From Roseibacillus persicicus (GTDB lineage: Bacteria; Verrucomicrobiota; Verrucomicrobiia; Verrucomicrobiales; Akkermansiaceae), in contig NZ_BMXI01000003.1 of NCBI RefSeq assembly GCF_014651675.1, forward strand, positions 319,604 to 383,603: a stretch of DNA of 64,000 nt, written 5' to 3'. Under the pieces are notes generated by a model. It did not search any database. It was not told the origin of the DNA and saw only the letters and a program-made list of their open reading frames with translations. Shown here in pieces: positions 1,172 to 55,113 of this stretch. The number at the start of each line of letters is the position of its first letter. The stretch's first letter is position 1. Both the position numbers and the translations under genes were made by a program.

Positions 1172-2911
1172 ATGACCGCCCCTTCATCATCTAACAGATT
1201 CCTGACCACTCTTCGCGAGGACACGCTGCGCGAGATTGCGGCCAGTAAGGCGGCCTTGGTTGAGATTTGGAGCCTATCCCTGGCCCAGCGGGTGGAGAAG
1301 GGTCATGCCTTGGGACCGTTGAGAGTGGTGTCCCAAAAAGGCGCCATCGTGACCCTGGCCCATGAGACCAGTTTGTCGCAGGAATCTTTTTCGCGTATCC
1401 GGGAGGGAGACCTCCTGCGGATGACTCGCAACGAACCACTCGCAAACGGGCCCTCCTGTTTTTTCCTGCACGACGATGGCGAACTCGTTGTGGTGCAGAT
1501 GCTTTCGGATGCTCCCCTGCCCTTTGACGAGCCTCTCAGCGGCCTCACCCTCGACCCCGATTTCTTCGATCCCACTGATCGCTTTCTTGCCGCACTGGAT
1601 GCCTTGCGAACGACGGTCCATGGCACGGATGTGGTGCTTCCCATTCTGATGGGTGAAGGCGACAGCGGGTCGGATTCAGAAACCTTCGACGAAGTGCTGG
1701 ACCAGTTGGAAGACCTCCCCACAGAGGAAGCCTTTCACCCCGCCCAGAACGATGCCATCGCCCTGAGCCTGGCGGCCTCGCGCTTTCATCTGGTACAAGG
1801 TCCTCCCGGAACGGGGAAGACCCATGTCTTGGCCGAGATTGCCTGCCGTCTGATCGAAAAAGGACATCGCGTCCTTCTAACAGGGCCCACCCATCGCGCC
1901 ATTGATCATGCCCTCCGGTCCTGTCGCAAGCGTCTCCCTGCTGGAGTTCGAGTGGTCAAGATTAGCCGGGCTCGCTTCGATTCCGACTCTCCGGTGGAAC
2001 ACTTCGACCACCTCGGAGATGCCGAACTCAGTTTCGACGAACCCTTTCTCCTGGGCTCCACCACCTTGAACCTTTGGTCGAACAGCAGCGGCCTCGTCGA
2101 CCAATCGTTCGACACCGTCTTGCTCGACGAGTCTTCGCAGCTCACCCTGATGCTCGCGACCCTGGCCATGCTGCGCGCGGAGAAGTTTCTCTTCTTCGGC
2201 GACCATTGCCAGCTCCCTCCAGTGCGACTGGCTCCGAATCCCGACAGCACCCTCGACGACTCCATCTTCAACAAGCTGCGCAAGTCCTCCTCCACCACCA
2301 TGCTCACAGAATCGTGGCGCTTGAATGCCGACCTTGCGGAATGGCCGTCGGCGACTTTCTACGGCAACCAGCTGACCGCTCGACACGATCGAGTCCTTTC
2401 CCTCGCACCCGCTTCCAGTCTCCCCGCTCTGCAAGCACGCCCGGGATTCGTCTCCATCCAGCATGATGATCGTCAGTCCTCGACGCGTTCTCCGGAAGAA
2501 GCAGAGAGAGTTCTGGAGCTCATTCTCGACCTCCTTCGGGGCGGCTTGGCTCCCTCTGATATTGCGGTGGTCACTCCCTTCCGCGCCCAAGCGGCTTTGA
2601 TTCGTCGCTCCCTGCGGAATCGCGAAGAGTTTACCCCTTGGCCAGTCGAAGAGCTTCTGGCCGACACCGTGGAACGCCTGCAGGGGCAGGAAAGAGAGGT
2701 CATTCTGGTTTCCATGGCGGCCTCGCGGGATGAATTCATCATGCGTCTCGAAGACTTCCTCTTCGAGCCCCGCCGCCTCAATGTCGCCATCACCCGGGCC
2801 CGGCGAAAGACCATCTTGCTCCATTCCAAAACCCTTCTCAAGGTCGCGCAATCTTTAGCCGACTCCGGTAGCGCCGGAGCCACCACCTTCTGCTCACTAC
2901 TAGAATCCTAG
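1172..2911 (+). CDS. UPF1/DNA2-like superfamily 1 helicase
   Basis: This 579-residue protein carries the motif set of SF1 helicases of the DNA2/NAM7 (UPF1-like) group: Walker A GPPGTGKT at 210-217, Walker B LLDESS at about 317-322, motif III GDHCQLPP at 343-350, a GQE-type motif (RLQGQEREVILVS) near 500, and motif VI NVAITRAR near 537. About 200 N-terminal residues precede the motor and probably form a beta-barrel-like accessory domain. It should unwind or translocate on nucleic acid using ATP. No nuclease motif is visible. A second SF1 helicase starts 37 bp downstream on the same strand, so the two are probably co-transcribed behind the dyad at 1141-1162. Whether it acts on RNA, on DNA or in defence cannot be told from sequence. 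Confidence 0.85.
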   Translation: MTAPSSSNRFLTTLREDTLREIAASKAALVEIWSLSLAQRVEKGHALGPLRVVSQKGAIVTLAHETSLSQESFSRIREGDLLRMTRNEPLANGPSCFFLHDDGELVVVQMLSDAPLPFDEPLSGLTLDPDFFDPTDRFLAALDALRTTVHGTDVVLPILMGEGDSGSDSETFDEVLDQLEDLPTEEAFHPAQNDAIALSLAASRFHLVQGPPGTGKTHVLAEIACRLIEKGHRVLLTGPTHRAIDHALRSCRKRLPAGVRVVKISRARFDSDSPVEHFDHLGDAELSFDEPFLLGSTTLNLWSNSSGLVDQSFDTVLLDESSQLTLMLATLAMLRAEKFLFFGDHCQLPPVRLAPNPDSTLDDSIFNKLRKSSSTTMLTESWRLNADLAEWPSATFYGNQLTARHDRVLSLAPASSLPALQARPGFVSIQHDDRQSSTRSPEEAERVLELILDLLRGGLAPSDIAVVTPFRAQAALIRRSLRNREEFTPWPVEELLADTVERLQGQEREVILVSMAASRDEFIMRLEDFLFEPRRLNVAITRARRKTILLHSKTLLKVAQSLADSGSAGATTFCSLLES

Positions 2912-6806: not shown

Positions 6807-7796
6807 TTATTCGTGGTCGATGACAACCTTGCCCATACCCTGACCGCTCTCCAGCCGGGCGTGGGCTTCTCCCGCTTGCTCCAGGGAATAGCGGTTTTCG
6901 TCGAGAACCACTTTGAAGCCACCGGCTTCGGCGATGGTGGCGAGGTCGCTCAGAATCGCGTGATGCTGACCACGCTGATAGTTGTGCAACATCGGAATCA
7001 ACATGAAGACGACATGCAGCGAGAGCCCCTTGAAGTGCGCTCCGCTGAGGTCCAATTCGCACAGAGTCACCGTCGTCGCGACGTTGCCATTGAGCGCGGC
7101 CGCTTCAAAGGACTTCAGCAAATTCTGCCCGCCTACGGAATCGAACACGATGTCGAATCCCGCACCGCCGGTGTGCGCTGCCACATAATCTTCCACCGCT
7201 TCGGTCTTGTAGTTGATCGCCTGCGCTCCGAGTTCGTTGATGAGTGCCAGCTGCTTCTCACCTCCACCAGTGGCCACGACCTCCGCGCCCCAGTATTTGG
7301 CCAGTTGCACAGCCACGTGTCCCACCCCACCGGAACCACCGTGGACGAGCACTTTCTGCCCTGCGGAGATACCTGCTCGCTTAAGCCCCTCGTAGGCGGT
7401 GATGGCCACCAGAGGGAGCGCCGCCGCTTCGCGCATGCTGAGGTTGGAAGGCTTTTTCGCCATCAACTGGGCATCGGCGACAATGTATTCGGTGAGGGTT
7501 CCCGGCAAGTCCGCCAGACCACCAGCGCAACCGTAGACCTCGTCCCCGACGGCATAGCCATCGACCCCTTCTCCGACCTCTTCCACGGTGCCGGCAAAGT
7601 CCATGCCCAGAAGGGCGGGAGTTTCGGGCGAGAGCGGCAACTCTTTCCCCATATTGCGAATCATAGTGTCGACGGTGTTGACACTGGAGGCCGCGATCTT
7701 GACCAGCACGTGGCCAGCCTTCACCGCTGGCTTGGCTACCTCGGCAGCTTCGAATTTCGCGTCTTCACCATAGGCTTGAATGAGCATTGCTTTCAT
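6807..7796 (-). CDS. Zinc-independent MDR / quinone oxidoreductase-like protein
   Basis: A 329-residue medium-chain dehydrogenase/reductase. The catalytic GroES-like part has the GMDFAGTVEEVG pattern near 65, and the nucleotide-binding site is VLVHGGSGGVGHVAVQLAK near 150. The zinc-ligand cysteines of alcohol dehydrogenases are not seen, so this fits the NADPH:quinone oxidoreductase (QOR) branch. It is first in the operon with the LLM and SDR genes. The 246-bp intergenic region to the divergent ccoG (7797-8042) must hold both promoters; I could not place convincing -35/-10 boxes in it. Confidence 0.85.
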   Translation of the reverse strand: MKAMLIQAYGEDAKFEAAEVAKPAVKAGHVLVKIAASSVNTVDTMIRNMGKELPLSPETPALLGMDFAGTVEEVGEGVDGYAVGDEVYGCAGGLADLPGTLTEYIVADAQLMAKKPSNLSMREAAALPLVAITAYEGLKRAGISAGQKVLVHGGSGGVGHVAVQLAKYWGAEVVATGGGEKQLALINELGAQAINYKTEAVEDYVAAHTGGAGFDIVFDSVGGQNLLKSFEAAALNGNVATTVTLCELDLSGAHFKGLSLHVVFMLIPMLHNYQRGQHHAILSDLATIAEAGGFKVVLDENRYSLEQAGEAHARLESGQGMGKVVIDHE

Positions 7797-8042
7797 AATC
7801 GTCTTTCGTTTTTGGGTTGTGTTGAGGATGCGGCTTTCACCGACTTGCGATCAGATTACCTCAAGGCCAACTATTTCGGAAATTGATTGTTGAAATCGAA
7901 CCCATGAGTAAATCGAATCGACTAAAAATTGGAGAAGCGCGACTCGCGACGGATTTGACCCTTCTTTCGCAACCCATGCGCACCGAACGCGACGATATGC
8001 GGGGCGAATATTCCTGCTTAGGCATATAGTCTCCGCACGCTC

Positions 8043-9443
8043 ATGGCCAATCCTTCCAAAAAGTCCCCGAACCTCGAGACCGTCACCACCATCAACGACG
8101 ATGGCTCGCACTACGTCCTCCATCCGGCCGATGTCCGGGGCAAGTTCACCGTGATGCGCCGCCTGGTGGCTGCGGTGATGCTCTTTGTGTATGTCGCTTT
8201 GCCCTGGATTCAGATCAACGGCAATCCGGCGGTCTTCCTCGATGTCGCCCACCGCCGCTTCCACCTCTTCGGCCTCACCTTGGCTCCCCAGGACTTGTGG
8301 GTGCTCTTCTTCCTCATCTCCGGATTGGGGTTCACGCTCTTCTTTGTGACCTCGCTGTTAGGTCGTCTCTGGTGTGGATGGGCCTGTCCCTACACCATCT
8401 TTCTGGAGCACATCTTTCGTCGGGTGGAAAGACTCATCGATGGCGACGCACCCGCTCGTCGCAAGCTGGCGGCGGCTCCCTGGAACTTTGAAAAAATCTG
8501 GAAGCGGGTGCTCAAGCACGGGATCTACATTCTCTCGGCCTTCCTCATCGCACACATCTTTCTCTCCTACTTTGTCTCGCTGAAAAGCCTCTACGGATAT
8601 ATGCGCGAGAACCCTCTGGCCCACTTCACGCCCTTTGCCGTGGCGGCCTTTCTAACTGTGGTCCTCTACGGATGCTTCGCCTTTTTCCGCGAACAATTCT
8701 GCATCATCATGTGCCCCTATGGTCGCATCCAATCTGTTCTAACAGATGACGACACCATGATCATTGGCTACGACGAGAAGCGGGGTGAACCCCGGGGCGC
8801 CAAGGGCAAGGTCGAGGGCGATTGCATCGACTGCCGCCGCTGCGTGAACGTCTGCCCCACCGGAATCGACATCCGCAACGGGCTGCAGATCGAGTGCATT
8901 GGCTGCTCGGCCTGCGTGGATGCCTGCGATGAAATCATGGTCAAAGTGGGCCGCCCGAAAGGCCTCGTGCGCTATGACTCCCTCAATGGTCTGGCCGGGC
9001 TGAAGCGACGCATCCTGCGCCCCCGCATCTTCCTCTATCTCGGTCTTGCCGGACTCGGCACCGCCGCCCTGATTGGGGCCGTGACCCAGCGGGCCCGTCC
9101 CTACACTTGGTCAGTGACCCGGATGCAAGGCCCACCCTACTACACCGATGGCAATGCGGTGCGGAACCACTATCAGGTCCTCCTGATCAACAAGCGCAAC
9201 CAACCCGCCACGGTCACCTTCGACCTTGTCAACCCACCCGCCGGATTCAATCTCTCGGGCGAAAACGAGCCCCTCCCGATGGAGCCCAAAAGCGAGCTGG
9301 AACGTCCCGCCATCATCGTCTGCGATTACGGAAACTTCACTGGACCGGTTGAGCTTCAACTCCGTGCGACAGCCAATCCTGGCAACACGACTTTGCTGCA
9401 GACCATCCGCTTCATCGGCCCGAACCCCAACTCCCTCAAGTAA
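8043..9443 (+). CDS. ccoG: Cytochrome cbb3 oxidase accessory protein CcoG (FixG/RdxA)
   Basis: A 466-residue polyferredoxin-type membrane protein. Hydrophobic segments occur near residues 40-60, 85-115, 160-180, 200-220 and 330-350. GRLWCGWACPYTIFLEH near 110 and FREQFCIIMCPYGRIQS near 220 are characteristic of the CcoG/RdxA family. Two 4Fe-4S ligand clusters follow near 260-300 (CIDCRRCVNVCP and CIGCSACVDACD). The C-terminal 100 residues match the periplasmic Ig-like IG-FixG region. CcoG is implicated in Cu(II) reduction during cbb3 oxidase assembly. ccoNOP are not in this window. Confidence 0.93.
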   Translation: MANPSKKSPNLETVTTINDDGSHYVLHPADVRGKFTVMRRLVAAVMLFVYVALPWIQINGNPAVFLDVAHRRFHLFGLTLAPQDLWVLFFLISGLGFTLFFVTSLLGRLWCGWACPYTIFLEHIFRRVERLIDGDAPARRKLAAAPWNFEKIWKRVLKHGIYILSAFLIAHIFLSYFVSLKSLYGYMRENPLAHFTPFAVAAFLTVVLYGCFAFFREQFCIIMCPYGRIQSVLTDDDTMIIGYDEKRGEPRGAKGKVEGDCIDCRRCVNVCPTGIDIRNGLQIECIGCSACVDACDEIMVKVGRPKGLVRYDSLNGLAGLKRRILRPRIFLYLGLAGLGTAALIGAVTQRARPYTWSVTRMQGPPYYTDGNAVRNHYQVLLINKRNQPATVTFDLVNPPAGFNLSGENEPLPMEPKSELERPAIIVCDYGNFTGPVELQLRATANPGNTTLLQTIRFIGPNPNSLK

Positions 9444-48649: not shown

Positions 48650-49981
48650 CTAAGCAAACACCTCGTGCGCCACATTGCCAGCCACATCAGTCAGCCGGAA
48701 GTCGCGACCATTGTGACGATAGGTCAGGCGTTTGTGATCCAGACCGAGTGCATGCAGAATAGTCGCGTGAAAGTCGTGGGTGTGAACATGTCCTTCGATG
48801 ACCTTGCTACCACTCTCGTCAGTGGCCCCATGGACATAGCCGCGCTTGGTTCCACCGCCAGCCAGCCAAGTGGTGAAGGCCTTGCTGTGGTGATTGCGCC
48901 CCTTGCTCCCTTCGGCGCGCGGAGTGCGGCCGAATTCCGAGCACCAAATCACCAGCGTCTCATCTAACAGACCACGCTGCTTTAGATCCTTCAAGAGACC
49001 GGCAATGGGTCGATCGATGGCATTGGCCAAAGGTTGGTGGCTCAGGATATTGCCATGAGCCCCATCCCAGTTGTTGTGGGATCCGGTATCGAAAAGCTCC
49101 ACAAAACGCACCCCCGATTCAACCAGACGCCGCGCGGCGAGGCACTGCCAGGCAAAGGTTTCGGTCGCGGAGTTGGTTAATCCGTAGAGCTCCTTGGTGG
49201 CCTGACTCTCGCGGGCAAAGTCGAAAATAGTGGGAGCCGCCAACTCCATGCTGGCCGCAGTCTCGAAGGATTGTTGCCGGGCCAGCAGATCATTGTCCGG
49301 ACGGGTGGCGGCATGGCTGGCATTGAGACCCGCCAGCATGTTCAACAAGGCCGGTTGGGTCGCCCCCCGGATGGGCTTGAGATTGCGAATAGGCTCCACC
49401 CCGGGGCGGGCATGCACGCCCTGGTGACTGGCGGGCAGAAAGTTGGAGTCCCACGCCAGCGACCCCGCATAGGAAGGCTCCTTCGACAGCACGATGTGCC
49501 CGGGCAAGTTGGGATTGGAGGTCCCCAAGGCATAACTAATCCATGAACCTAAACTCGGCCGAGGCGAAGTCACCGATCCCGTGTGCATCCCGAGGGTCGC
49601 AGCAGTGTGGTTGTTGTGGTCCCCGTGCATGGAACGAATCAAGGTGATATCGTCAATACAATTGGAGACCTCGGGAAACAGGTCGGTGGTGAGGGTGCCG
49701 TTCTTTCCTTTGCGCGAAGCTTCCCAAGGACTCGGCAAATACTTGCCCTCCAACTTGTCCAAGTCGGGCTTGGGATCGAAGGAATCCACATGCGAAACTC
49801 CTCCTGAGAGAAAGATCATAATCACATTCTTCGCCCGGGGCGCAAAGTGCGGAACGAGCTCGGGCTTCGGCCCCATACGCGCGAAGGCATGCCCTCCGAA
49901 ACCCATGGCCGCAGCAGCGGCACCACCGGAACGGAGGAAGGAACGACGGGAAAAGTGAGGACTGGCTTGGAGATGTTTCAT
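48650..49981 (-). CDS. DUF1501 Tat-exported protein
   Basis: A 443-residue DUF1501 protein, a sulfatase-like alkaline-phosphatase-fold family typical of Planctomycetes and Verrucomicrobia. The Tat signal is HFSRRSFLRSGGAAAAAMGF. Family blocks: VIMIFLSGGVSHVDSFDPKP near 52, HTGSVTSPRPSLGSW near 132, VIWCSEFGRTPRAE near 345 and GRNHHSKAFTTWLAGGG. It is 15 bp after the DUF1549/DUF1553 gene, its usual partner. The reaction is not established. Confidence 0.92.
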   Translation of the reverse strand: MKHLQASPHFSRRSFLRSGGAAAAAMGFGGHAFARMGPKPELVPHFAPRAKNVIMIFLSGGVSHVDSFDPKPDLDKLEGKYLPSPWEASRKGKNGTLTTDLFPEVSNCIDDITLIRSMHGDHNNHTAATLGMHTGSVTSPRPSLGSWISYALGTSNPNLPGHIVLSKEPSYAGSLAWDSNFLPASHQGVHARPGVEPIRNLKPIRGATQPALLNMLAGLNASHAATRPDNDLLARQQSFETAASMELAAPTIFDFARESQATKELYGLTNSATETFAWQCLAARRLVESGVRFVELFDTGSHNNWDGAHGNILSHQPLANAIDRPIAGLLKDLKQRGLLDETLVIWCSEFGRTPRAEGSKGRNHHSKAFTTWLAGGGTKRGYVHGATDESGSKVIEGHVHTHDFHATILHALGLDHKRLTYRHNGRDFRLTDVAGNVAHEVFA

Positions 49982-49996
49982 GAGATGAAATTGATT

Positions 49997-52309
49997 TTAT
50001 TCGAGGTAAGCAAACTCGTTACTGAGCAGAAGGGCCTGCGCGACCGTCTGCCACTTTGCGGCTTCACTCTCTCCCTCGAGCTCTTGAAGACTCTTTGTTA
50101 AAAAATTGCGCTCGTCTTCATTCGGGTCGCGCAAATAGGCGAGGCGGTAGGCGGCAGCGACTCGCTCGGAGTCGTTCTCCCCCGCCGCCATGATGCGCTT
50201 CGCAAAGTCATCGGCAAAGCTGTGCATGCGGGGATTATTGAGGAGATAGAGCGCTTGCACTGGCACCGTGCTGGTGCGCCGCATCCCGGTCGATTGAGTG
50301 GGATCAGCAGCATCGAACAAGGAAAGAAATTCCTGCTGCCGGATGCGCGAGGTCATCAGGAAGATACTGCGGAAATTGTGCTCGAAGCTGTCTTCGAATG
50401 GCTTGTGCTGGGTAAAGTTCGCCTCACCTAATTTCGGGAAAGGATGGCGTCCCGGATTCTTGAGGTCCAGCTGGCCAGCGACGGTGAGGGCCGAATCGCG
50501 CAACTCTTCGGCAGTGAGACGACGACGGTCGAAGCGCCACCACAGAGTGTTTGCGGTATCGGTCACCGGCCCCTCTTCATCGGGACGCCATGCCTGTTGG
50601 TAGGTCGCGGATTGCAGAATCATTCGGTTCAGCGCCTTGATCGACCAACCCGACTCAATGAAGACCCCCGTAAGGTAATCCAACAGCTCGGGGTGAGTCG
50701 GCAACGCTCCCGACATCCCGACATTGTTCGGAGTGGCAGCCAGCGCCGGACCAAAGTGCCAGCCCCAGACCCGGTTCACGATCACCCGCGCAGTGAGAGG
50801 ATTTTCGTCGGAAGCAATCCACTCCGCAAGCTGCAAGCGCCCGCTCTCGCCCTCGGGGATTTGCGGTGTTTTTCCTCCAGAAATGACAGTGAGAAAGCCT
50901 CGCGGAACGACCGGTCCCCGGCGCTTGGGATTGCCCTTCAGATGGATTGGCACGTCGTGCCCCTTGCCAGTCTCGCGCACCCCAAAGGCCAGTTCGGCCA
51001 GACTCTCTTGCTCCTTCAGATCCTCCACGATCTCTTTCCCCACCCCCTTGGTCAAACTGATGCGACCCGCTTCCAGAATCCTTTCATACACCGACTTGTT
51101 AATCTCATCAACCCGTTCATTGATCGCGGGGTCGGAAGTCGTCGGGACCAGGTTGAAAGGAACCTGCCGCCCCTCCCGCCCCGCGTAGGGATAGCGGATG
51201 GAGTCGAAGTATCCGTAGAAGCCATAGTAGTCCGAGGCTGGGATAGGATCGAACTTGTGGTTGTGGCACTTGGCGCAGGACATTTGCATCCCGAGAAACG
51301 CCTGCCCCATCGCGTCGATGGTATCCCCAATCACCAGCGGGATATCGTTTTTCAGATCGTCACAAAAGCGCACCGAATTGGCGATGAAGCTCGTGGCGAT
51401 CACCCTCCGCCGATAGAGGTCTTCGTCCTCTCCGGAGTCCATCAAGTCCCCCGCCAACTGCTCTTTGATAAACTCGTCGAAGGGCAGATCCTCATTGAAA
51501 GCCCGAATGACATAATCGCGATAGAGCGACATTTGGGGAATGGGAAAGTCGGCATTGTCTCCCGCGGTATCGGAGTAGCGCGCCACATCCAACCAGTGCC
51601 GTCCCCACTTGCGTCCATACTCGGGCGAGGCCAGATATTGCTCGATGAGTGCGGCCTCTTGATTTTGCTGGCCCAACTCCATCTCAGCCTCAGTTGGAGG
51701 CAGGCCGGTGAGTCCGTAGCTCAGGCGACGCACCAATTCATGCGGCTTCGCTTTCTGTCCCGGATCGACCGAATATTCCTCCAGTTTCGAGGCAATGAAC
51801 CGGTCGATATCAGTGCGGGCCCACTGCTCCCACACCGGTGACTTCAGCTTGGGAACCTCCACTTTGGCAAGGGGCTGATAGGCCCAATGCGAGGCTCCTT
51901 TTTCGGCCTCGCTGAGAGGTTCCGGCGCCGTGCGCGCGCTCTCCGGCCAATGGGCACCATCCGCCACCCACTTGGTGAGATGGGCCACCTCTTCCTTGGA
52001 AAGAGCGGATGAGTCCTTGGGCGGCATCTGCGTCTCCTTGTCCTTGCGGGAGACCGCTTTGATCAGTCCGCTGGCCTTGGGGTCGCCCGGGACAATGGCC
52101 GTGCCACTATCTCCGCCTTTCAAAAGTCCCGCCAGAGAGTCGACCACCAAGCCGCCCTTGGCCTCCTCGCCCACATGCGAGTGGCAATCGTAGCAGGCCG
52201 TTTGCAAGATGGGGGCGATGGTCTCGATAAAGAACTGATCACGGTCCGAAGCCGACCCCAAAACGAAAGAAGCCGACCCCAGAAAAAGAGCAATGGAACG
52301 TTGAATATC
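49997..52309 (-). CDS. Planctomycete-type cytochrome (PSCyt1, DUF1549, DUF1553)
   Basis: A 770-residue exported protein. After a signal peptide (about 1-21) comes the PSCyt1 haem domain with CYDCH, then the DUF1549 domain (WLDVARYSDTAG near 245; DFPIPQMSLYRDYVIRAFN), a CxxCH-like CAKCHNHKFDP site, and DUF1553 (ARVIVNRVWGWHFG, WSIKALNRMILQS, RRLTAEELRDSAL). The frame continues to a TTG at 52354; I prefer the GTG at 52309, which gives a conventional signal peptide. This region also has a short direct repeat (GAAGCCGACCCC twice). It forms an operon with DUF1501. Confidence 0.88.
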   Translation of the reverse strand, partial: DIQRSIALFLGSASFVLGSASDRDQFFIETIAPILQTACYDCHSHVGEEAKGGLVVDSLAGLLKGGDSGTAIVPGDPKASGLIKAVSRKDKETQMPPKDSSALSKEEVAHLTKWVADGAHWPESARTAPEPLSEAEKGASHWAYQPLAKVEVPKLKSPVWEQWARTDIDRFIASKLEEYSVDPGQKAKPHELVRRLSYGLTGLPPTEAEMELGQQNQEAALIEQYLASPEYGRKWGRHWLDVARYSDTAGDNADFPIPQMSLYRDYVIRAFNEDLPFDEFIKEQLAGDLMDSGEDEDLYRRRVIATSFIANSVRFCDDLKNDIPLVIGDTIDAMGQAFLGMQMSCAKCHNHKFDPIPASDYYGFYGYFDSIRYPYAGREGRQVPFNLVPTTSDPAINERVDEINKSVYERILEAGRISLTKGVGKEIVEDLKEQESLAELAFGVRETGKGHDVPIHLKGNPKRRGPVVPRGFLTVISGGKTPQIPEGESGRLQLAEWIASDENPLTARVIVNRVWGWHFGPALAATPNNVGMSGALPTHPELLDYLTGVFIESGWSIKALNRMILQSATYQQAWRPDEEGPVTDTANTLWWRFDRRRLTAEELRDSALTVAGQLDLKNPGRHPFPKLGEANFTQHKPFEDSFEHNFRSIFLMTSRIRQQEFLSLFDAADPTQSTGMRRTSTVPVQALYLLNNPRMHSFADDFAKRIMAAGENDSERVAAAYRLAYLRDPNEDERNFLTKSLQELEGESEAAKWQTVAQALLLSNEFAYLE

Positions 52310-52575
52310 CACGAGCCGATCAAACGAAAAATTAGAGTGGACCCTTTCACCCAAAAAAGCTTCTAATCCCTTTATTCAGAAACGATAGAGAGCAATTCCA
52401 TCGCCTTCGAAACCAGGGTAAAGAGATATACTTCCGCTGAATCGAAATTGGACTGGATATTTCGTATTTGTTGCAAAAAAGGCGAGATTTTCGTCTCTTT
52501 CCTCCCTCAAGTTGTTCCACGACCGAACTGGGTCACAAGACCGCTTGCTCTTCGAAATTTACTCTGACGCCCACA

Positions 52576-53067
52576 ATGATGAACCGACTTCTTTCCCTTC
52601 TCACCATTCTCCTGCTCGCTATCCCGCTTTTTGCCGAAAAAGAAGACCCGCGATTCACTGAGCTCGATGCCTTTTGGGCCAAAGTCTCGCTGGCGGTGAA
52701 GGAGGGGGACTTCGAGAGTTATAGCGAGACCTGTCATCCCGAAGCCGTGCTCGTGAGTGGCACCAAAGAAACAAGTTACCCCCTCGCCCAAGCCCTTGTG
52801 CGCTGGAAAGAGGAGTTCGACAACACCCGGGCAGGCAAGGTGAAGGCCAGTGTGGAGTTCCGCTTCGGCCACCGCTATGGAGACGAAAGCACCGCCCATG
52901 AGTCGGGGATGTTTCTCTACACCTCGCAAAATCCCGGCGAAGAAGCGAAGCACGAGTTCATTCACTTCGAGGGCTTGCTGATTAAAAAAGAGGGTCAGTG
53001 GCTGATGCTGATGGAATACCAAAAATCGCGCGGAACTGAGGCCGAGTGGGACGCTTTGGAACACTAA
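52576..53067 (+). CDS. Secreted NTF2/SnoaL-like protein
   Basis: A 163-residue protein with a signal peptide (about 1-20, LLTILLLAIPLFAEK) and an NTF2-like (DUF4440/SnoaL) cone fold: FTELDAFWAKVSLAVKEGDFESYSETCHPEAVLVSGT, then a beta-rich half ending EGQWLMLMEYQKS. Such domains bind small ligands or act as isomerases; none can be assigned here. ATG 52576 begins the signal peptide. The M24 peptidase gene starts about 20 bp later. The preceding 266 bp to 52309 hold no gene. Confidence 0.7.
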   Translation: MMNRLLSLLTILLLAIPLFAEKEDPRFTELDAFWAKVSLAVKEGDFESYSETCHPEAVLVSGTKETSYPLAQALVRWKEEFDNTRAGKVKASVEFRFGHRYGDESTAHESGMFLYTSQNPGEEAKHEFIHFEGLLIKKEGQWLMLMEYQKSRGTEAEWDALEH

Positions 53068-53088
53068 GTGCAGCGCGCCGCATCCACC

Positions 53089-54204
53089 ATGTCCCACTCC
53101 TCCCCGTTCAGCCCGCAAGAAATGCAGGGCCGTCTTGCACGTATTCGCTCGGAGATGGCCGCCCGCCATCTTGACGCTTACATCGCCACCAATCAGGCCA
53201 ACGTCCGCTACGCCACCGGCTTCCGTGGGGAGCCCCACACTCTCCTTCTAACAGCCAGCGACGCGGTGCTCTACACCTCCTTTCGCACCCTGCCTTGGGC
53301 GACAGAACAAACCGCTAGTCTTCAAACCTCACTCGAGCTCAGCACCCAAGCCCCGCCCTTGGAAAATATCCAGCAACGGCTTGCCGGTCAGTCGCTCACT
53401 ATCGGTGTGGAGCAAGGACTCAGTCACTCGGCCTTTCTCAAGCTCAGCCAACAATTTGCCTCGCACACCCTGCAACCCGCCGATCCAATCGAGCACGCCC
53501 GCAGGGAAAAATCTCCCGCCGAGATCTCACTCTTGGAAGCGTCCCAACGCCTCAACGAAGAAGTTTTCGCCGCCGTCATCCCCCAGATTCAACCGGCCCT
53601 GAGCGAACGAGCGGTGCAGGGACTGATGCTCGCGGAAATGGCCAAGCGAGAAGAGATCGACGGCTACTCCTTCAATCCCATTGTGGCGGTCGATGGCAAT
53701 GCTTGGGAAATCCATCACCTGCCAGACAACACCCGGATTCAGAAGGACTCCATAGTGCTCCTCGATCTCGGCATCGTCTATCAGGGCTACGCCTCCGACA
53801 TGACCCGCACCCTTTGCATGGGAAAGGCCACCGCCCGAATGCGGGAGGTCTACGACACCGTGAGAGAAGCCCAAGACGCAGCCATCGCCCTGATGCAGCC
53901 GGGGGCCCAGACCCACGATATCGATCAAACAGCCCGCGAGGTCATCACCCGCGCCGGTCATGCCCGGGGCTTTACCCACGGACTGGGACACAGCATCGGA
54001 CTGGAGACCCACGACCCGGGCCTCAATCTTTCCCCCTTCACTCCCAACGAAGTTCTTACAGCCGGCATGGCATTCACCGTCGAGCCCGGCATCTATCTGG
54101 AGAACGAATTCGGAGTCCGCACCGAGGACGTCCTCATCATCGGCGAAGAAAGCCCCAAAAACATCACCCGTCAGAGCAAAGACCTGCTCGAGCTCAACTT
54201 CTAA
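53089..54204 (+). CDS. M24-family metallopeptidase (Xaa-Pro dipeptidase-like)
   Basis: A 371-residue creatinase/prolidase-fold protein. All five metal ligands of the pita-bread domain are present: D226 (LLDLG), D237 (SDMTRT), H301 (GLGHSIG), E332 (VEPGIYLE), E346 (VRTEDVL). The N-terminal creatinase-like domain covers about 10-130. This is the Xaa-Pro aminopeptidase/dipeptidase pattern. ATG 53089 is chosen over the GTG at 53068, which abuts the preceding stop codon. The aminotransferase-fold gene starts 9 bp after it. Confidence 0.9.
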   Translation: MSHSSPFSPQEMQGRLARIRSEMAARHLDAYIATNQANVRYATGFRGEPHTLLLTASDAVLYTSFRTLPWATEQTASLQTSLELSTQAPPLENIQQRLAGQSLTIGVEQGLSHSAFLKLSQQFASHTLQPADPIEHARREKSPAEISLLEASQRLNEEVFAAVIPQIQPALSERAVQGLMLAEMAKREEIDGYSFNPIVAVDGNAWEIHHLPDNTRIQKDSIVLLDLGIVYQGYASDMTRTLCMGKATARMREVYDTVREAQDAAIALMQPGAQTHDIDQTAREVITRAGHARGFTHGLGHSIGLETHDPGLNLSPFTPNEVLTAGMAFTVEPGIYLENEFGVRTEDVLIIGEESPKNITRQSKDLLELNF

Positions 54205-54213
54205 CCACACCCC

Positions 54214-55113
54214 ATGCTGCAACAATACAATCCCAAGAACGAAAACCTCATCGTCTTCATCAACGGCAAATTGGTTCACCGCGACGAAGCCGGGGTGAGC
54301 CCTTTCGATTCCTCGGTGCAAAATGGCGACGCCTGCTGGGAAGGCCTGCGCGTCTACAAGGGAAAAATCTTCAAGCTCGAGGAGCATCTCGACCGTCTTT
54401 TCAAGAGCATGGAAATGCTGCGCTATGAGGGCCTGCCCACTCGCGAGGAAATCATTTCCGCCATCAAGGAGACCCTCGCTGCCAACGAGATGTTCGACAA
54501 CGTGCACATCCGCCTTACCGTTTCGCGCGGAGTCAAATACACCTCCGGACTCGATCCCCGAATCAATACCAAGGGCTGCTCCCTCTTCGTCCTCGCCGAA
54601 CACAAGGCGCCGGTCTACGACACCAGCGGACTCTTCCTCGCCACCACCAAACAGCGGCGCCCCTTTGCCGACGTCCTCGATCAACGCATCCACTCGTGCA
54701 ACCAACTGACCTCCATCCTGGCCAAGCTGGAAGCCACCGACGCGGGAGCTGACGACGCGCTGATGCTGGATACGGAAGGCAACCTCGCGGAGACCAACGC
54801 CACCCACGTCTTTCTGGTAAAGGACGGCACCGTCCTCACCTCCACCACCAAGGCCTGCCCCACCGGCATCACCCGCGCCACCGTCTTCAGCCTTTGTGAG
54901 GAAAATGAAATTCCCCTCGATATCCGAGGCATTCCCGAAGCCGAAATCCACACCGCCGACGAGGTCTTCTGCACCGGCACCATGGGTGAAATCGTCGCGG
55001 TCAATCGAATCGACGACACCATCTACAACGAAGGCCAACCCGGCCCCGTCACCCAGCGCCTCGCCGCCCTCTATCAGAATCTAACAGAGACCGAGGGTTA
55101 CCCCATCGTCTAA
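54214..55113 (+). CDS. Class-IV aminotransferase-fold protein lacking the PLP lysine
   Basis: A 299-residue fold-type IV protein related to branched-chain and D-amino-acid aminotransferases. Family blocks are clear: ENLIVFINGKLV, DACWEGLRVYKGKIFKLEEHLDRLF, GNLAETNATHVFLV (E193 conserved), ACPTGITRATV and EVFCTGTMGEI. At the Schiff-base position the sequence is RIHSCNQLTSILAK, with H160 where relatives have Lys (as in DIKSLNLL). PLP-dependent transamination is therefore doubtful unless another Lys substitutes; a lysine lies 9 residues on. It is 9 bp after the M24 peptidase gene and probably co-transcribed. The usual ilvE label would be risky. Confidence 0.8.
   Translation: MLQQYNPKNENLIVFINGKLVHRDEAGVSPFDSSVQNGDACWEGLRVYKGKIFKLEEHLDRLFKSMEMLRYEGLPTREEIISAIKETLAANEMFDNVHIRLTVSRGVKYTSGLDPRINTKGCSLFVLAEHKAPVYDTSGLFLATTKQRRPFADVLDQRIHSCNQLTSILAKLEATDAGADDALMLDTEGNLAETNATHVFLVKDGTVLTSTTKACPTGITRATVFSLCEENEIPLDIRGIPEAEIHTADEVFCTGTMGEIVAVNRIDDTIYNEGQPGPVTQRLAALYQNLTETEGYPIV

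Follow-up and report, generated by a model that had tools for sequence, protein, structure and literature searches.

A family of fold-type IV aminotransferase-like proteins with histidine in place of the Schiff-base lysine, its asparagine-bearing sister group and a sulfotransferase partner

The gene at 54214..55113 on the plus strand of the window, by which we mean the whole stretch of 64,000 nucleotides from Roseibacillus persicicus that was analysed, raises the question of whether an aminotransferase-like protein has truly exchanged its catalytic lysine for histidine and, if so, what kind of protein it has become. The open reading frame encodes 299 residues and matches the Pfam family Aminotran_4 (PF01063) with 144.4 bits, as compared to a gathering cut-off of 28.5. 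The codon CAC at 54691..54693 (+) gives His160, at the place of the lysine that forms the Schiff base with PLP. The best NCBIfam models were PRK08320 for branched-chain aminotransferases (BCATs) and TIGR01122 for IlvE, and the protein stays below the cut-offs of both, 243.3 as compared to 363 and 194.9 as compared to 245.55. In the following, the letter at position 160 names the type of a protein: H-type for His, Asn-type for Asn and Lys-type for Lys. Besides this protein, the window's genome (92 contigs, 5.28 Mb) has two further class IV matches, both Lys-type, with 36% and 25% identity. A 503-residue open reading frame on the minus strand, 53527-55038, overlaps the gene and was taken as a shadow ORF.

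The replacement is real. His160 stands opposite the Schiff-base lysine of the archaeal BCATs 5mqz and 5cm0 in gap-free pairwise alignment near the site, and opposite Lys160 of E. coli IlvE in the multiple alignment, where IlvE has one extra residue two positions later. These three alignments bear out the earlier note, made from the sequence alone, which had placed a histidine at the PLP-lysine position. They also rule out a misalignment of the block, and no different alignment, with another lysine as the Schiff-base residue, is required. Lysine in close orthologues would have spoken against the note, and the orthologues examined carry histidine instead. A sequencing error or an isolated mutation was ruled out, since CAC is two substitutions from any lysine codon, so that a single base error is no explanation, and since histidine stands at 160 in 80 of 80 genome-contig loci (the best 80 of 122; one of the six seed peptides included the histidine). 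The profile surveys were run without a His-containing seed, the profile itself being built from H-type rows. Of its matches that were read, those above about 390 bits were all His and those of 250-320 bits Asn, except the divergent His row L217 (263 bits), with one 255-bit fragment outside, and Lys-type proteins scored about 240 bits or less. The gene is under purifying selection, with Ka/Ks values of 0.104/0.79 against locus L004, 0.133/1.16 against L005 and 0.243/1.55 against L007 (about 0.13, 0.11 and 0.16), which together with 83 columns that do not vary across 32 rows of several phyla rules out a pseudogene.

Columns were counted in 187 sequences, 130 H-type, 22 Asn-type (including the solved structure 7z79) and 35 Lys-type (including IlvE), and identical or contained sequences were collapsed before column, tree and neighbour counts. 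The distant class IV paralogues L140, L142, L144, L146 and L149, with the alignment shifted at 160 (P or S), were left out of the column counts, and so were L139, L002 and the fragment G932 (residues 1-140); L143 and L145, whose shifted position reads H and A, were beyond the E-value limit. The H-type family comprises 130 distinct sequences from several phyla. All of them have Glu193 (codon 54790..54792, +), Gly218, Thr220, Arg221 and Thr256, and 129 have Arg61 (54394..54396, +). The corresponding IlvE residues are E194, G220, T222, R223, T258 and R60, where R60 is described as the binder of the PLP phosphate and E194 as the partner of the pyridine nitrogen (PMC9309667). The window protein thus carries the Glu for the pyridine nitrogen as well as the phosphate cup (Glu193, Arg61, Thr220, Arg221, Thr256) of a catalytic fold-type IV enzyme, and the earlier note was right in regarding Glu193 as intact. 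Arg100, the equivalent of IlvE R98, is likewise found in 130/130.

On the other side of the pocket the H-type has changed. As compared to IlvE, Tyr96 has become His98 and Phe37 has become Trp42 (each 130/130), Ala259 has become Met257 (127/130), Leu218 has become Pro (118/130), Tyr32 is replaced by Gly or Asn, and Tyr165 by Leu, Gln or Met. Gained residues are Glu129 (130/130), Lys108 (54535..54537, +; 129/130) and Lys131 (54604..54606, +; 129/130), the last in an AEHK loop beside IlvE W127. In the description of IlvE, R98 takes acidic side chains, Tyr165 touches the PLP ring and Trp127 touches the substrate (PMC9309667). Judged from these columns, the H-type keeps the cofactor cup, and its substrate side has become more basic. 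Of these residues the Asn-type has His98, Lys108, Glu129 and Trp42 in 22/22 each and Lys131 in 20/22, but with Thr or Ser in place of Glu193 in 22/22 a further component of PLP chemistry is lost there. In the Lys-types position 98 is Tyr (33/35) and position 257 is Ala (32/35), and at 108 and 131 Lys is not the common letter. The most divergent H-type row, L217 (in G910, about 1225-2130, minus strand; 34% identity, motif RSHDNN), keeps His160, Glu193, Thr220, Arg221 and Thr256, but its positions 61, 108 and 131 are occupied by Lys, Gln and Arg.

Because it is the letter at 160 that sorts the sequences into groups, a meaningful test has to come from the tree and from the remaining columns. For the tree, 81 of the 187 sequences were used after deletion of residues 156-168 and 193. 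A single branch sets off each group (H-type 100/99, Asn-type 100/99, Lys-type 100/100), and a long stem with 100/100 support joins the H- and Asn-types to the exclusion of the Lys enzymes; both L217 and IlvE have long branches. Two letter changes suffice on this tree, which implies that the lysine was most simply lost once and that the descendants fixed different letters. The window protein, with His and Glu at 160 and 193, falls outside the Asn-type clade that holds 7z79.

An AlphaFold model of the window protein, built on a 59-row alignment, reached a pLDDT of 91.3 and a pTM of 0.89. Its best matches were 7z79 and 9j32 (Z 38.6-38.7, rmsd 1.7, 295 aligned; 37% identity to 7z79), followed by the BCATs 5e25, 5mqz (titled holoform) and 5cm0 with Z 36.6-37.9. 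The predicted model thus has the fold of catalytic fold-type IV PLP aminotransferases, and the whole of it matches fold-type IV enzymes and not the aspartate-aminotransferase-like fold (fold type I). The closest solved structure, 7z79, is an aminotransferase-like protein from Variovorax paradoxus. Neither it nor the window protein has the lysine, and it shares Arg23, Trp42, His98, Lys108, Glu129, Lys131 and Asn195 with the H-type, but it has Asn at 160 and Ser for Glu193 and belongs to the separate clade (100/99). The entry 9j32 is titled as the N174K mutant of the 7z79 protein, which implies that its depositors had noticed the missing lysine in the Asn-type. Neither 7z79 nor any fold-type IV protein with His for Lys was the subject of a paper found in a search of open-licence PMC text. 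The archaeal and PRK08320-type BCATs (5mqz, 5cm0, 5e25) are like the H-type in fold, length, phosphate cup, Glu193 and Arg100, with 38-39% identity, but have lysine at 160 (5mqz and 5cm0 aligned). By its sequence at this defining residue, the H-type stands outside the catalytic aminotransferases.

In the distribution counts, which include the genomes used as starting points, the H-type was present in 6/60 genomes of the window's GTDB family and in 6/288 sampled genomes of its phylum. In Planctomycetota (the phylum of G337, a Planctomycetaceae MAG), 42/294 genomes matched, 41 with His and one with Asn. Actinomycetota (the phylum of G334, Winogradskya humida) had 23/346 above the threshold, seven H-type and 16 Asn-type genomes, and Chloroflexota (the phylum of G339, Litorilinea) had 6/251, two with His and four with Asn. 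Twenty plasmid records matched at 36-41%, and the four examined were Asn-type, among amino-acid or dicarboxylate transport and CoA-related genes. A further locus, L083, is from a record with the title Cyanobacteria bacterium CYA N2_1. Of the 35 matching genomes in the phylum sample around it, 34 are also in the Planctomycetota sample, which suggests that the title is probably wrong, and this sample was not used for counts.

The neighbouring genes revealed a partner. Choosing open reading frames by length gives shadow ORFs in GC-rich loci, and calls by codon composition do badly where the DNA is AT-rich (L032). Neighbours were therefore counted with tblastn, within 1.1 kb for the H-type. A gene for a PAPS-type sulfotransferase (PF19798) stands beside 86 of the 130 distinct H-type genes. 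It is upstream on the same strand in 80 (the gap being at most 150 bases in 77, two fusions included) and convergent downstream in six; L079, with PF19798 at 2.5 kb, was counted as without. In the two fusions, both in the Planctomycetota sample, the sulfotransferase comes first (L207:2434-4416 (-), 661 residues; L208:1410-3194 (+), 595 residues). The Asn-type loci have it downstream on the same strand in 17/21, always within 150 bases (L157-L172 and L218 among them), and it was not seen in the other four, which are plasmid records. Direct reading showed the sulfotransferase motif WSGPRNxST in 15 of these 21 loci; in two more the match was a chance one. PF19798 was beside none of 35 Lys-type genes, in loci of 2.5-3.9 kb. 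Outside the main counts, L226-L230 (flanks of about 1.5 kb) gave one H-type without PF19798 and four Chloroflexota Asn-types, one with and three without it. The three arrangements and the fusion argue for a functional link rather than the inheritance of one operon.

The predicted model of the sulfotransferase (pLDDT 91.7) matched a tyrosylprotein sulfotransferase with Z 14.2, an olefin-synthase sulfotransferase domain with Z 14.1 and a curacin domain with Z 13.1, all three with rmsd 3.8-4.0 over 208-214 residues, so the partner's fold is, as modelled, that of a PAPS sulfotransferase. The olefin-synthase and curacin domains sulfonate a hydroxyl for subsequent elimination. The combination may extend to plants. 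We take the Arabidopsis proteins called 'branched-chain-amino-acid aminotransferase-like' to consist of PF19798 and PF01063 in the same order as the bacterial fusions, and presumably to carry the IHHNN motif seen in L155, L156, L207 and L208. No paper naming the two Arabidopsis loci (At3g05190 and At5g27410) was found in open-licence PMC text; the protein name together with Arabidopsis occurs in 10 papers. PF19798 was among the nine models searched with in a study of plant sulfotransferases, whose main text makes no mention of aminotransferases (PMC12506393).

At the window itself the two-gene unit is not present, and an M24 gene stands there instead. The search for PF19798 gave no match in the window's genome, while the same search was positive in 9/16 H-type genomes tested, and PF19798 was absent from all six H-type genomes of the window's GTDB family and from one Gemmatimonadota genome tested. 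The main partner is therefore invisible from the window alone. The window's rows are nested among sulfotransferase-linked rows in the tree, being joined with L011 at 95/85, L120 at 100/99 and L010 and L014 at 98/80. It follows that the sulfotransferase was most simply lost and that the M24 gene took its position, and PF19798 would then be the ancestral partner.

The M24 gene, 53068..54204 (+) with a possible start at the ATG at 53089, encodes a hydrolase of the Xaa-Pro dipeptidase-like kind (PF00557 and PF01321) and is a probable operon partner, with 9 bases between its stop and the H-type start. Its metal-site motifs look complete. An M24 gene is upstream in 8/130 distinct H-type loci, of at least three kinds: the window type (L004, L005, L222), that of L006, L008 and L009 (about 28% to the window's M24) and that of L055 (35%). 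The earlier note had read tight linkage to an M24 peptidase and to an NTF2-like gene as a hint of a common pathway. The tight linkage to M24 stands, and the pathway only in part: the repeated pairing hints weakly at a metabolite in common, which such a hydrolase would supply or use. The NTF2-like linkage finds no support beyond the nearest relative, the gene being present in one of 80 loci (L004; the best 80 of 122). That gene, at 52468-53067 (+), encodes a small protein, a stretch of which close to the start resembles a signal peptide, and gave no Pfam or NCBIfam match.

Other window neighbours were not conserved among the same 80 loci (the best of 122), accB and accC homologues being found in one and NmrA-like and thiE genes in none. 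Two large minus-strand open reading frames at 48650-52354, which we presume to be DUF1501-like and planctomycete-cytochrome-like, have similar counterparts in L057 and L008. The nearest relative, L004, has a sulfatase gene (PF00884/PF16347) at 6999-8438 (-), convergent, with its end 0.1 kb beyond the H-type gene. In 11/130 H-type loci, all on contigs titled Gemmatimonadetes, the upstream gene is threonine synthase. Profiles confirmed it in L026 and the homoserine kinase before it in L025, and relatives of this kinase gene were found in 11 loci. L074 and L075 have a 2-hydroxyacid dehydrogenase that comes closest to phosphoglycerate dehydrogenase without reaching the cut-off of that model, and L050, L052, L058 and L066 a hexapeptide acyltransferase below the serine-acetyltransferase cut-offs. 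A single locus has a PdxA-like gene of vitamin B6 synthesis (L201:2397-3278 (-)), above the Pfam and below the NCBIfam cut-off, whose end overlaps the H-type gene start by about a dozen bases. Like the sulfotransferase, these last neighbours, from threonine synthase to PdxA, activate or handle hydroxy acids, which makes an O-activated hydroxy or oxo acid a reasonable guess for the substrate, given that several of them rest on one to four loci and that such genes are common. None of the three tested neighbours, sulfotransferase, threonine synthase and M24, was found in 23/130 H-type loci, and 2/130 are at a contig end.

How could such a protein work? We consider it about an even chance that the H-type is an active enzyme of a lysine-less fold-type IV branch, one that uses PMP, or PLP without an internal aldimine, with His160 as acid/base and an anionic hydroxy or oxo acid as substrate. 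The cofactor would be held non-covalently in the conserved cup of Arg61, Glu193, Thr220, Arg221 and Thr256, and His160, at the place of the lysine amine, would shuttle protons between its C4' and the substrate. The substrate may be a 2-oxo or amino acid that is small and anionic and probably carries a hydroxyl in activated form (as a sulfate, phosphate or acyl ester); it would be gripped by Arg100, the Arg that handles acidic side chains in IlvE, and by His98, Lys108 and Lys131. The PAPS sulfotransferase would be the ancestral partner, and the M24 hydrolase may feed or follow the reaction in this Verrucomicrobiota lineage. Not everything agrees with this. The ring-contact Tyr165 of IlvE is gone in the H-type, and Leu218 has become Pro in most of the family; the 23 H-type loci without the tested neighbours, and three whole lineages without the sulfotransferase, also speak against it. 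Every catalytically active aminotransferase is stated to conserve the lysine absolutely (PMC9309667), so that transamination proper would break a rule. Furthermore, the Asn-type lacks Glu193 and still keeps the pocket residues and, in 17/21 loci, the partner, which suggests that the shared function could need no classical PLP chemistry.

It is conceivable, although somewhat unlikely, that there is no B6 cofactor at all, and that the cup holds another anionic ligand (a nucleotide, PAP or PAPS, or a sulfo- or phospho-metabolite) in a regulator or a non-catalytic partner of the adjacent enzyme. This would agree with the disappearance of the lysine from the whole H- and Asn-type branch and, in the Asn-type, of the partner of the pyridine nitrogen as well, with a partner gene that is adjacent or fused, and with the newly fixed Lys108, Lys131 and His98, which suggest a new anionic ligand. 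The retention of Glu193, Arg61, Thr220 and Thr256 in the H-type argues against it, as Glu193 has no obvious reason to be kept if there is no pyridinium ring. The H-type also persists in the 7/16 tested genomes without a PF19798 match, which implies that its role goes beyond that of a subunit of that enzyme.

A transaminase that is ordinary except for its base, binding PLP normally and using His160 to shift the proton in a slow amino transfer between 2-oxo acids, seems unlikely. The invariant Arg100 would suit it, and SpnQ is described as acting as an aminotransferase if it is given Glu and PLP but no reductase; ColD and E1 are described as lacking such activity under similar conditions (PMC8987622). 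This explanation leaves the sulfotransferase and the pocket of Lys108, Lys131 and His98 unexplained, and the score on TIGR01122 is below the cut-off. Still less likely is a conventional transaminase in which Lys131 or Lys108 makes the Schiff base, since, near-fixed as both are in the H- and Asn-types while not being the common letter in the Lys-types, and close as the Lys131 loop is to the substrate contact Trp127 of IlvE (PMC9309667), L217 has neither lysine and keeps His160, and both are expected on the substrate side, away from the old lysine, judging from the IlvE residues replaced.

For the acid/base role of His160 that we favour there is a known parallel. The nucleotide-sugar 3-dehydratases ColD, E1 and SpnQ are enzymes of fold type I. 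They are described as resembling aspartate-type aminotransferases and as having a His for the catalytic Lys on that scaffold, as the H-type has on its own, and in ColD and E1, with PMP, this His acts as base and acid (PMC8987622). They differ in having sugar-nucleotide substrates and known PMP chemistry, and the likeness to the H-type is one of mechanism only; by this analogy His160 may act on the fold-type IV scaffold as the His does in ColD and E1. More speculatively, and with rather little probability, the H-type could do on fold type IV what ColD does on fold type I, as an eliminase or deoxygenase that depends on PMP, has His as its base and acts on hydroxy-2-oxo acids. The hydroxyl would then be activated beforehand as a leaving group by the fused or adjacent sulfotransferase in many bacteria and perhaps in plants, or, where the sulfotransferase is missing, by a kinase- or acyl-type partner or after release by an M24 hydrolase. 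If true, this would be a sulfate-activated B6 pathway, of which no description was found in open-licence PMC text.

For a member of the family without lysine, the earlier note had offered a different use of PLP, another cofactor or a non-catalytic partner. The conserved phosphate cup, Glu193 and the specific basic pocket make the first the more likely. The finding is larger than that note stated, as it comprises a His-for-Lys family, an Asn-for-Lys sister group and a sulfotransferase partner. A strongly conserved family has replaced its lysine, most simply once, and yet kept the cofactor cup, which poses the question of the work that a B6 enzyme scaffold can do once its lysine is gone. For the substrate, the sulfotransferase partner and the fusion offer a direct lead. 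If the presumed plant homologues hold, the answer would also bear on plant genes of unknown function.
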